A stretch of 64,000 nt of DNA. Origin: an uncultured Methylophaga sp. (GTDB taxonomy: Bacteria > Pseudomonadota > Gammaproteobacteria > GCF-002020875). The notes under the pieces are model-generated. The model was not told where the DNA came from and made no database searches. It saw only the letters and a list, made by a program, of their open reading frames with translations. Location: the NCBI GenBank assembly GCA_937877715.1, contig CALEHW010000059.1, positions 1-64,000 of the forward strand. Direction: 5' to 3'. The translations under genes were made by a program, and so were the position numbers. The stretch's first letter is position 1; each line of letters opens with the position of its first letter. Shown one piece after another: positions 32,935 to 63,194 of the stretch.

Positions 32935-32945
32935 CTTGGGATTAG

Positions 32946-33073
32946 TCGTCTCGCAAGTGGCGGCTCTCTCCTCCATGCAGTGCGTTCAAGTGCATCCCTG
33001 TATCGCTCGGCTGTGACCATCCCTGGCCACAGACGACTGCCTGCAGAAGAGAGTCGCCGCTTGTGAGACAGCC
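32946..33073 (+). repeat. Inverted-repeat element, family B, copy B1
   Basis: Arms of about 39 nt (32946-32984 and 33034-33073) pair with mismatches that are mostly transitions and so keep G-U pairing in RNA. The conserved head (32985-33033) contains catccctgtatcgctcg and an inner hairpin, ctgtgacc/ggccacag. It fills the ruvB-ybgC spacer. The arm sequence is unrelated to those of copies B2-B4. Confidence 0.85.
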
Positions 33074-33077
33074 ATTA

Positions 33078-34106
33078 TCAGAAGAGATCACCACTTCGCT
33101 CCTCTCGGCGCGGTGTCAGTCCAAAGTGGAGATAGCCATTTTTGGTAACTACCCGCCCTCTTGGGGTGCGCATCATGTACCCTTGCTGGATGAGATAGGG
33201 TTCCAGCACATCTTCGATGGTGCCCCGCTCCTCACCTATAGCAGCTGCGATACTGTCGATTCCAACTGGACCGCCATCAAACTTCTCGATCATCGCCAGC
33301 AGCAGTTTCCTGTCCATATTGTCGAACCCCTTCACATCCACATCCAGCAGATCCAGTGCACGCTCTGCAACTGTTTTAGTGATGGTACCGTCCGCCTTCA
33401 CCTCGGAGTAATCACGCACCCTACGCAGTAGCCTATTGGCAATTCTTGGGGTGCCACGGGAGCGTTTCGCAATCTCTACGGCACCTCCCTTCTCTGTTGG
33501 AACAGACTGAATAGAGGCGGCCCGCATCACGATGGAGGTGAGATCTCTCTCATTGTAGAACTCCAGCCGCTGCACAATACCAAAACGGTCACGTAGTGGA
33601 GAGGTGAGCAGCCCTGCACGGGTGGTGGCCCCAACCAGGGTAAATGGGGGCAGATCAAGTTTGATGGAGCGGGCGGCAGGCCCCTCCCCGATCATGATAT
33701 CGAGCTGAAAGTCCTCCATCGCCGGATAGAGCACCTCCTCTACTACCGGACTGAGCCTATGAATCTCGTCAACAAAGAGGACATCATGGGGCTCCAGATT
33801 TGTGAGTAGTGCAGCCAGATCGCCCGGCTTTTCCAGTACGGGGCCGGAGGTGTGGCGCATACCAACCCCCATCTCATTGGCTATGACATGGGCCAGGGTA
33901 GTCTTACCGAGTCCTGGAGGACCAAATATCAGGGTGTGGTCCAACGGCTCACCTCGCCCACGCGCTGCAGGGATAAAGATATCCATCTGCTCACGTACCA
34001 CCGGCTGCCCCTCATACTCCTTGAGAAGCCTGGGACGAATCGCACGATCCAGCCGCTCCTCATTGGGGGTGGTGGCTGAGGATATGGTACGTATATGGTC
34101 GCTCAT
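33078..34106 (-). CDS. ruvB: Holliday junction branch-migration helicase RuvB
   Basis: This 342-residue AAA+ motor drives branch migration with RuvA. It has Walker [12 protein letters not shown], Walker [12 protein letters not shown], sensor 1 GATTRAG, and a C-terminal winged helix with the MRTPRGRV segment. It overlaps ruvA by 4 bp. The 3' end lies 5 bp from inverted-repeat element B1. Confidence 0.97.
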
Positions 34107-39192: not shown

Positions 39193-39269
39193 ATTTTTTT
39201 CCTTGTTACTCTATTTCAACAATTCTCGATGCAACCAGAATCGATACTACTAAAAAACCTGACAAGTTC

Positions 39270-39367
39270 GTCTGTTTCTGTTCTGAGACCATCAGTAGCC
39301 AGGAATGGCTACCGCTGGGTGTACATGGATGTATTTACAGCATGTCTCAGAATAGAGATAGACAGAC
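39270..39367 (-). repeat. Inverted-repeat element, family B, copy B2 (decayed, reverse orientation)
   Basis: On the minus strand this contains a diverged copy of the family B head (agccaggaatggct and tgtacatggatgta on the plus strand match the reverse complement of the others). It is flanked by arms of about 22 nt that share ttctgagac/gtctcagaa and gtctgt/acagac. It occupies the 198-bp spacer between fmdB and aspS, otherwise empty. Confidence 0.7.
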
Positions 39368-39389
39368 CTGCTATACTAAGTGCCCCTAA

Positions 39390-42162: not shown

Positions 42163-42177
42163 TACAAGCTATCAATT

Positions 42178-42299
42178 GTTGCATAAGTAGTGGCAGCTCC
42201 TGCGCCTACAGCGCGCTCGAGTACATCCTTGTATCGCTCGACTACGGCCTTCCATGGCCGCAGACGGCTGTAGCTCAGGACTTCCAAAACTTATGCAAC
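42178..42299 (+). repeat. Inverted-repeat element, family B, copy B3
   Basis: Arms of about 34 nt (42178-42212 and 42267-42299) begin with 11 perfect pairs (gttgcataagt) and end with tacagc/gctgta. The head (42213-42266) carries gtacatccttgtatcgctcg and the inner hairpin ctacggcc/ggccgcag. It lies between rfaH and the SDR gene. Confidence 0.85.
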
Positions 42300-42336
42300 G
42301 CTTTATACGAAGTACAAGGTACACGTGATGCTGCGC

Positions 42337-43725: not shown

Positions 43726-43736
43726 CTATCTGTATA

Positions 43737-43926
43737 TCCATTACTCACCCCATGCCAGAGATATCTTTATCTCCTCGAAGACTGCTTCCCTCCATGCTTT
43801 TTGACTATTTCTCAGCGCCTGTCAAAACTCGCTGCGCTCAGACCTCTATCTGAAAAATAGTTAAAAAATTATGGCGCAGTCAACTTGTCGATAAAGATAT
43901 CTCTGGCACGGGGCAAGCAGTTACGA
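43737..43926 (-). repeat. Inverted-repeat element, family A, copy A2 (reverse orientation)
   Basis: Arms of about 85 nt include a perfect 19-bp block (43753-43771 with 43890-43908). The loop on the minus strand (43825-43844) is tgagcgcagcgagttt. The sequence after the loop (gacaggcgctgagaaatagtcaaaaag, read in two parts) and the outer actcaccccatg are shared with copy A4. It fills the convergent spacer before the clpB 3' end. Confidence 0.88.
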
Positions 43927-46568: not shown

Positions 46569-46573
46569 TATCT

Positions 46574-46708
46574 ATCAATCCTTGCGAAAGTAATGGCGCG
46601 CTCGCCCATGTGGCACGCTCAAGCACATCCCTGTGTTGCTCGTCTGTGGCCTTCCTGGCCACAGACGGCCACTCGTGCGAGCGCGCCATTACTTTCGCAA
46701 GGATTGAT
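46574..46708 (+). repeat. Inverted-repeat element, family B, copy B4 (32-bp perfect arms)
   Basis: The arms 46574-46605 and 46677-46708 are perfect reverse complements over 32 bp. The head (46606-46676) contains cacatccctgtgttgctcg and the perfect inner hairpin ctgtggcc/ggccacag. It lies in the divergent clpB-rimO spacer, 5 bp from the clpB -35 box and 24 bp before the rimO TATAAT. Confidence 0.92.
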
Positions 46709-46732
46709 GCTTAATCAACCCCGTTGAAACGG

Positions 46733-51445: not shown

Positions 51446-51472
51446 CGTCATCCTCGCGAAGGCGGGGATCCA
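51446..51472 (-). repeat. REP-like palindrome, copy R4
   Basis: A minus-strand copy of the GGATCCCCGCC repeat, 18 bp upstream of the lspA start. Together with R5 it forms an inverted pair separated by 20 bp, able to fold into a long hairpin in the ileS-lspA transcript. Confidence 0.85.
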
Positions 51473-51492
51473 TAGTAGCTGAGTTATATTTT

Positions 51493-51520
51493 CTGGATCC
51501 CCGCCTTCGCAGGAATGACT
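51493..51520 (+). repeat. REP-like palindrome, copy R5
   Basis: A plus-strand copy facing R4, 43 bp from the ileS stop. The inner stem is weakened (ccgccttcgcagg), so the pairing with R4 is stronger than its own hairpin. Confidence 0.85.
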
Positions 51521-54476: not shown

Positions 54477-54642
54477 GGTTTTGTATTGTTCATCGACTGA
54501 ATTCAGTTGCCCCGGAGATTTTCCCATTAATCCAGACTAAAGTGTCCTAGTGTCTGAGCAGAGCGAGTTTTAGGACACGCTGGTTTAATGGGAAAATCTC
54601 CGGATAGAGGCAACTGCTGAAGAAGATGTACAATCCAAAACC
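54477..54642 (+). repeat. Inverted-repeat element, family A, copy A3
   Basis: Arms of about 72 nt contain a perfect 19-bp block (54512-54530 with 54585-54603), an inner perfect 8-bp block (gtgtccta/taggacac) and decayed outer ends (ggttttg-attgt/acaat-caaaacc). The loop is 54550-54570 (tgagcagagcgagttt). It fills the ribF-ileS spacer. Confidence 0.9.
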
Positions 54643-61965: not shown

Positions 61966-62382
61966 ATGAGAGAGAGTACCAACCAATCCGGCTTTACCCT
62001 GATAGAGCTGATAATTGCCATTGCAATCATCGCCATCCTGGCGGCTATTGCCATCCCCTCATACACCCAATACACCACCAAGGCACGCTACTCTGAGGTA
62101 GTTCTTGCTGCGCAGCCTGTCAAAATAGGTGTTGAACAGTGTTATCAGGTACGTAGCGCACTTGCTGACTGCGACGGAGGGAGCTATGGAGTGCCTGCCA
62201 ATGTATCTGGCGCAGCAGGAGCAGTAAATACTATCTCCACCGCAGATGGAGTTATTACTGTTACCCCGGATGCCACCAACGGGATTGTTGCAGGTGACAC
62301 CTATATCCTGACCCCGACCGCCGCCTCACCCATGACCTGGGTTGCGAGCGGTGGTGGCGTGACTAACGGATATACGCAGTAA
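61966..62382 (+). CDS. Type IV pilin (PilA/PilE-like)
   Basis: This 138-residue prepilin has leader MRESTNQSG and the class IVa cleavage site before FTLIELIIAIAIIAILAAIAIPSY, with Glu5 of the mature form, and a hydrophobic N-terminal helix. Two cysteines (EQCYQ and LADC) are 11 residues apart, too close for a typical C-terminal D-loop. The open frame reaches 61921, but the ATG at 61966 gives the canonical short leader. The size fits a major or minor pilin; no other pilus gene is in the window. The stop codon lies inside the arm of element A4. Confidence 0.88.
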   Translation: MRESTNQSGFTLIELIIAIAIIAILAAIAIPSYTQYTTKARYSEVVLAAQPVKIGVEQCYQVRSALADCDGGSYGVPANVSGAAGAVNTISTADGVITVTPDATNGIVAGDTYILTPTAASPMTWVASGGGVTNGYTQ

Positions 62383-62578
62383 CTACTCACCCCATGACTG
62401 AGATCTTTTTTTCGACAAATTGGCCGTACCCCACTTTTTGGCTCTTTTTCAGAAAAGAGCCCGCCAGTGTTTGAGCATAGCGAGTTTTGGCAGGCGCTGA
62501 AAAATGGTCAAAAAGTGGGGGGGGGAAATGGCCTCTGAGGAGATAAAAGTATCTTGGTCATGGGGTGAGTAGTTACTG
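62377..62578 (+). repeat. Inverted-repeat element, family A, copy A4
   Basis: Arms of about 90 nt end in a perfect 20-bp terminal block (62379-62398 with 62557-62576). The loop (gtgtttgagcatagcgag, about 62467-62484) and the following ggcaggcgctgaaaaat match A2. An inner hairpin (ggctctttt/aaaagagcc) lies on the left arm. It fills the convergent pilin-peroxiredoxin spacer and starts within the last codon of the pilin gene. Confidence 0.9.
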
Positions 62579-62588
62579 TTACAGTTTA

Positions 62589-63194
62589 TTAAAGATCACC
62601 CTCATGTGATGCCAGGTAGGAGGCAACACCATCTGGGGTTGGCTTCATACCCTCCTCACCCTCCTGCCAACCTGCAGGACAGACCTCACCATGCTCCTCG
62701 GTAAACTGCAGTGCATCGACCATACGTAGCATCTCATCAATATTTCTACCGAGAGAGAGGTTGTTGACCACCTGATGCTGAACCACATTATCCTTGTCGA
62801 TCAGGAATGAGGCGCGCAGCGCAGGGGCCCCGCCAGGAACCTGTACCCCGTAATCCTTGGTGATTGCCTGGGTCATATCCCCAACCATGGTGTAACCAAC
62901 CGCACCGATACCACCATCATTGACTGGGGTATTTCTCCAGGCATTGTGGGTCCAGTGAGAATCGATAGAGACCCCGATCACCTCAACATTGCGCTTGTCA
63001 AATTCAGTCAGACGATGGTCAAACGCCAGCAGCTCTGAGGGACATACAAAAGTAAAATCAAGGGGATAGAAGAAGACAACAGCATATTTGCCAGCCTTTG
63101 CCTCATGCAGATTGAAATCTGCCTTGATCTCTCCACTACCCAATACTGATGGGGCTGTAAAATCTGGTGCTTCACTTCCGACTAGTACACTCAT
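62589..63194 (-). CDS. Typical 2-Cys peroxiredoxin (Prx1/AhpC family)
   Basis: This 201-residue thiol peroxidase reduces H2O2 and organic peroxides. The peroxidatic Cys51 is in FTFVCPSE, the resolving Cys172 in GEVCPAGWQ, and a GGxG-like loop and extended C-terminus (YLASHEGDL) suggest the overoxidation-sensitive Prx1 form rather than classical AhpC. No ahpF follows, so thioredoxin is the likely reductant. It has a near-consensus promoter (63245-63272) and Shine-Dalgarno aaggag. Confidence 0.92.
   Translation of the reverse strand: MSVLVGSEAPDFTAPSVLGSGEIKADFNLHEAKAGKYAVVFFYPLDFTFVCPSELLAFDHRLTEFDKRNVEVIGVSIDSHWTHNAWRNTPVNDGGIGAVGYTMVGDMTQAITKDYGVQVPGGAPALRASFLIDKDNVVQHQVVNNLSLGRNIDEMLRMVDALQFTEEHGEVCPAGWQEGEEGMKPTPDGVASYLASHEGDL

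Follow-up and report, generated by a model that had tools for sequence, protein, structure and literature searches.

The TwoAYGGAY RNA motif (Rfam RF01731; Weinberg 2010, PMC2864571) is a gammaproteobacterial RNA with two hairpins that carry AYGGAY or ANGGAN loops. Tandem G-A has been reported for it, its outer stem has been described as poorly conserved, and Gardner and Eldai predicted that it binds CsrA (PMC4333381). GGA in hairpin loops is likewise predicted to sequester CsrA in the sponge sRNAs CsrB/CsrC/RsmX/Y/Z. MITEs, ERIC, Correia/NEMIS and REP elements are short, non-coding, intergenic, palindromic repeats that are dispersed and present or absent between relatives. Template switching between the inverted repeats of quasipalindromes is documented to homogenise arms, with multi-base compensatory changes, and to invert the spacer between them (PMC8604942, PMC8794818).

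The elements described here have likenesses to each of these systems. They share with TwoAYGGAY the two hairpins, a tandem-GA-like internal loop, a poorly conserved external stem and a gammaproteobacterial host. Unlike it, they are scattered in ~18 copies, whose arms are near-perfect and long (22-46 bp) and whose outer ends resemble those of MITEs. Most of these copies fall under the Rfam cut-off, and the orientation of the head is not conserved at shared loci. In contrast to the CsrA sponges, they have only two GGA loops per unit and are mobile, in many dispersed copies. Compared with MITEs, ERIC, Correia and REP elements, they keep their loops while the arms drift with compensation. Compared with quasipalindromes, the repeat is dispersed and RNA-bearing and its inverted spacer measures ~55 bp or more; here, the arms may also recombine with each other.

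Elements in the window and their structured strand

We analysed a stretch of 64,000 nucleotides (the window). The element at 46571-46711 lies between a leftward gene that we take to be ClpB-like and a presumably rimO-like gene, and its RNA strand is the minus strand. An inverted-repeat search recovered its left arm (46574-46614) and right arm (46668-46708), which are 41 nt long, 93% complementary and without a strand of their own. On the minus strand, GGA occupies hairpin loop 1 (GGCC-AGGAA-GGCC) at 46653-46655 and hairpin loop 2 (ACAGGGAUGU) at 46628-46630. Two further minus-strand elements have the same parts. That at 32938-33079 (GGA at 33020-33022 and 32995-32997) has neighbours that we take to be ruvB-like and ybgC-like genes. 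That at 42168-42309 (GGA at 42251-42253 and 42226-42228) is placed between two co-directional plus-strand genes, and its arms are at 42170-42196 and 42281-42307 (inverted-repeat search).

On the plus strand the head reads catccctgtatcgctcg, at 32993-33009, 42224-42240 (one mismatch) and 46626-46642. Inverted arms are visible around all three heads, and two of these pairs, at 42170 and 46574, were picked up by the repeat finder. A diverged copy at 39246-39383 has its RNA strand on plus, with GGA at 39302-39304 and 39327-39329. Within it (39263-39370), catccctgtatcgctcg as written is absent, and the reverse complement retains catccatgta and a GGA-loop hairpin. A preliminary description of this DNA had four spacers sharing one head on inverted arms; this holds at three of them, and the fourth is this diverged copy with its head on the opposite strand. 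The head as read there is real, but the structure lies on the complementary strand.

The reverse complement of the head runs GCC-ANGGAN-GGC, then CGAGCG-ACANGGAUGU-...-UUGAGCG. Judged by eye from the sequence, CGAG opposite UGAG could form tandem G-A pairs. The loop GGA is kept in 34/36 copies in loop 1 and in 35/36 in loop 2, mostly at a spacing of 24-25 nt, and the surrounding stems vary.

Other palindromes were seen as well. A second family, built in the same way, is present at 43735-43925, 54490-54625 and 62370-62590, with the head gtctgagc-nn-agcgagttttgrcagg (e.g., gtgtctgagcagagcgagttttaggacac) on differing inverted arms of 24-56 nt (inverted-repeat search); it had no Rfam match at Rfam cut-offs. 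A very long, near-perfect hairpin elsewhere in the genome (L099, G000:C42:2034-2125; ~45 bp stem, ttgagcgaagcgaa in the loop) looks related to this second family rather than to TwoAYGGAY. The palindrome gtcatcctcgcgaaggcggggatcca...tggatccccgccttcgcaggaatgac at 51447-51519 is presumably a REP-like repeat, a type that we take to be widespread in proteobacteria.

Copy number, TwoAYGGAY membership and the predicted link to CsrA

We found that the elements are not chance arrangements, since copies occur beyond those used for training and covariation exceeds that of shuffled and slid controls (below). The preliminary description had proposed a covariance-model search of the genome and its relatives. 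A model built from ten copies of the own genome (R1) gave ~18 matches in that genome (G000, 1.89 Mb), several of them outside the training set, and ~18-19 copies in a congeneric sister species (G004). Matches in G002, G013 and G017 and the hairpin at G000:C42:2034 were left out of these counts, as the model may have picked up other kinds of long hairpin there from their structure only. The R1 score of the element at 46571-46711 (148.9 bits, E 1.2e-31) is a match by construction, as this is a training sequence. R1 gave E 4.9e-27 at 32938-33079, 1.2e-25 at 42168-42309 and 1.9e-6 (42.9 bits) at the diverged copy, 39246-39383, which was outside the training set.

At the Rfam gathering threshold, the whole window gave tRNA only. 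The Rfam scan of the single element gave only chance matches, for example Clostridiales-1 (16.5 bits), and these were rejected. Using cmscan in sensitive mode, we found RF01731 on the predicted strand in 3/15 loci: L035 (45.2 bits) exceeded the cut-off of 43, and L025 (36.9) and L026 (34.2) did not. Copies in the window were below the cut-off, and the 46574 element was unmatched to RF01731 even at E<=10. The reverse comparison was stronger. R1 recognised RF01731 loci in other genomes: L117 (E 5.5e-14), L111 (5.4e-12), L187 (5.7e-11), L107 (1.5e-10), L112 (2.5e-10) and L178 (<1e-8). It also matched loci in other genera, among them Marinobacter, Reinekea and Salinibius; the loci of these named genera had been collected by a head-pattern search, whose matches include Marinobacter spp. 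and Reinekea marinisedimentorum.

Based mainly on this recognition of RF01731 loci elsewhere, we file the elements as a putative divergent member of TwoAYGGAY, the connection of the window copies to RF01731 being made by other copies and by the model they share. The preliminary description knew of no named repeat family with this pattern and held that a head matching a known Rfam family would count against its reading. The core does have a name, RF01731, as L035 and the reverse comparison indicate; the match comes through these other copies, those in the window being below threshold. In the part of the literature that our search covered, we found no paper describing TwoAYGGAY as a repeat, and its occurrence at the heart of a palindromic repeat that is dispersed and mobile looks new.

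RF01731 copies are also numerous elsewhere in gammaproteobacteria, with at least 54 in G294, 30 in G091 and 29 in G014. Those in G294 sit inside a homogeneous repeat with the ends GTCCCGTTAAC...GTTAACGGGAC, and the flanks of those examined are unrelated. The 30 copies in G091 are mostly divergent pairs ~100 bp apart. Such pairs (L198-L208 in G091; L210-L215 in G272, G365 and G162) lie in repeats of ~400 bp that contain additional GGA-loop hairpins (e.g., AACAAACAGGATGTTTGTTT).

Loop 2 (RYACANGGAUGU) resembles RUACARGGAUGU, a string found in published papers and the CsrA SELEX consensus. The own genome has one csrA, which is intact and canonical in sequence. CsrA was present in 24/24 RF01731-positive genomes that were at least 90% complete, compared with 83/96 in a sample of the class. 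This co-occurrence is consistent with a link, weakly so because CsrA is common in the class.

Covarying arms, empty sites and inverted heads

We found that the stem drifts while its pairing is kept. RNAalifold predicted 46 pairs in a sequence-only alignment of eleven copies, and 32/46 had changed on both sides; the outer helix accounted for 31 pairs, 27 with changes on both sides. Pairing was retained in 91.2% of alignment cells, compared with 73.8% after shuffling and at most 39.4% when the pairing was slid. The covariation score was 0.523, compared with 0.192 (shuffled) and at most 0.139 (slid).

Mismatches on the GGA strand were also informative. In the arms of both sister genomes there were 42 G-U and 22 A-C mismatches (p 0.017, from copies that are not independent), and in the G294 arms 30 G-U and 1 A-C. 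In hairpin 1, the difference (8 G-U, 4 A-C) was not significant (p=0.39). An earlier impression that all hairpin-1 mismatches were G-U on the GGA strand was dropped when more copies gave this 8:4 count. The G-U excess is modest in this genus and, judged from these mismatch counts, may be the trace of selection on an RNA.

These results bear on two proposals in the preliminary description, that a stem is under selection even as its sequence drifts and that the arms share no sequence between loci. The former is well supported by the covariation, the G-U excess and the compensated double changes (below). The latter was overstated: the pairing of the arms stands, but degenerate outer ends of the type TATSAATNNTTGCNNAAGTNNTGG recur in many copies, though not in others (e.g., L092 and L093), and G004 has a subfamily with nearly identical arms.

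Insertion sites are mostly not shared between the own genome and G004; only three copies, all inside the window, are at shared sites. We found one clean empty site. The own genome has ATATCACT-element-ATAGTG at L089, and G004 has ATATCACTCATAGTG at the corresponding L072, which contains neither arm. The target duplication at this site may be ACT or TA; the 3-bp ACT fits better than TA, the reading first made from the ends of copies. Other site pairs were not clean. Opposite G4.C19.4832, for example, the own genome retains a piece resembling an arm end. In four congeners (G001, G002, G003 and G005), the spacers at the window loci are short or unrelated and lack the element (71-80% identity; loss is possible). 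The G003 spacer matching the 42168-42309 locus is short and element-free.

The preliminary description had also considered that the element spreads by duplicating flanking DNA in inverted orientation, so that one arm alone might be found as ancestral sequence at orthologous spacers. We rejected this because of the empty sites: neither arm is ancestral at L089/L072, and neither is present in the window spacers of the four congeners.

The elements are non-coding, dispersed, and present or absent at orthologous sites, as MITEs are. A search of the own genome and G004 for a parent insertion sequence with the ends of the window family gave only short elements and solo ends, with no end pair at insertion-sequence spacing; a parent need not share the genome. 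No similar element was found on a plasmid or phage at blastn sensitivity. At G004:C34:102056-102129, two inverted element ends are separated by only ~55 bp; this may be a deletion derivative that has lost the head.

At two of the three shared loci, 32946 and 46574, the two species have collinear flanks but an inverted head. At the third, 39263 (39246-39383), head orientation is the same. A head flip between sister species at shared loci looks new for TwoAYGGAY. Between the species, the arms at 46574 differ by three compensated double changes (C>T, G>A and G>A) and four one-sided changes (hypergeometric p 0.015). In the 32946 stem, one T-A pair has turned into A-T, a change with no route through a G-U intermediate. 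In a separate observation, the near-identical repeats L178-L197 (G294) differ in a mid-arm block, which varies as a compensated multi-base unit (e.g., TAAGCCTG, ACTGGCCGG, CATAGCCAA); this is suggestive of template switching.

Proposed function and alternative explanations

We consider it probable that the elements are ~140-bp palindromic, non-coding, MITE-like mobile repeats with a TwoAYGGAY RNA core, and that the scattered copies would serve as CsrA-binding sites or decoys. The element would be transcribed, probably by read-through from neighbouring genes, and moved by a putative transposition enzyme. In the predicted fold of its RNA, two short hairpins, each with an ANGGA loop and ~25 nt apart, close a long outer stem, and the pair of GGA loops would hold one CsrA dimer. 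Selection for pairing on the GGA strand would keep the arms complementary. In addition, one arm is probably copied onto the other when the inverted arms recombine or the template is switched between them, and the same process would flip the head. We think that selection on the RNA stem and template switching or recombination both act; their shares are not separable from these data.

The mobility and empty sites would also be expected of a selfish DNA palindrome, in which template switching alone matches the arms, a transposase recognises the folded single-stranded head, and the RNA has no role. Such a palindrome would account for the head inversions with concerted arm changes and for the lack of any preferred orientation relative to genes, and the strand bias could act on single-stranded DNA as well. 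However, the bases that are conserved belong to the GGA loops and to a possible tandem-GA internal loop, the signature of CsrA-site RNAs, and the same core is found in distant gammaproteobacteria within very different outer repeats, which transposase recognition would not predict. We regard this alternative as unlikely. An assembly artefact or chance is the least credible alternative: these are draft assemblies and long palindromes are prone to misassembly, but many independent copies across several genomes, the covariation statistics and the empty sites speak against it.

Control of the adjacent gene through CsrA, as a cis-regulatory leader, would fit the Rfam type of RF01731 (Cis-reg) and the copies that are directly upstream of genes. 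By crude gene calls, however, the downstream gene is sense to the RNA strand in only 16/36 copies and antisense in 20/36. These counts and the head flips at 32946 and 46574 disfavour a fixed leader, which we consider very improbable, and favour a role in trans as CsrA decoy, or no role; the mostly non-shared insertion sites also argue against a leader. The inverted heads at two orthologous loci might instead reflect a switch, with a dedicated recombinase flipping the head between the arms and so toggling an antisense or 5' RNA. Against this, the arms differ among loci and thus offer no common recombination site, flips were observed only between species, and template switching between arms requires no dedicated enzyme. 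We give this switch even less credence than the leader.

Beyond the reading that we prefer, mobile repeats with CsrA-binding sites or decoys, it is possible, and we suggest it only tentatively, that the elements are transposable riboregulators. A mobile family with a pair of CsrA sites as cargo would have spread independently in several gammaproteobacterial lineages, adding decoys, with template-switch flips of the head that reverse sense and antisense at the individual sites. This picture would take in the TwoAYGGAY cores found within outer repeats unrelated to one another, among them the divergent pairs.

For TwoAYGGAY, whose function is unknown, this supplies a genomic context: the motif belongs to a repeat that is dispersed and mobile, and not to a fixed cis-regulator or one lone sRNA gene. 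The flipped heads and compensated arms at shared loci are a natural test of selection versus template switching for RNA stems. Should the copies bind CsrA, a global post-transcriptional regulon would be seeded by mobile DNA.
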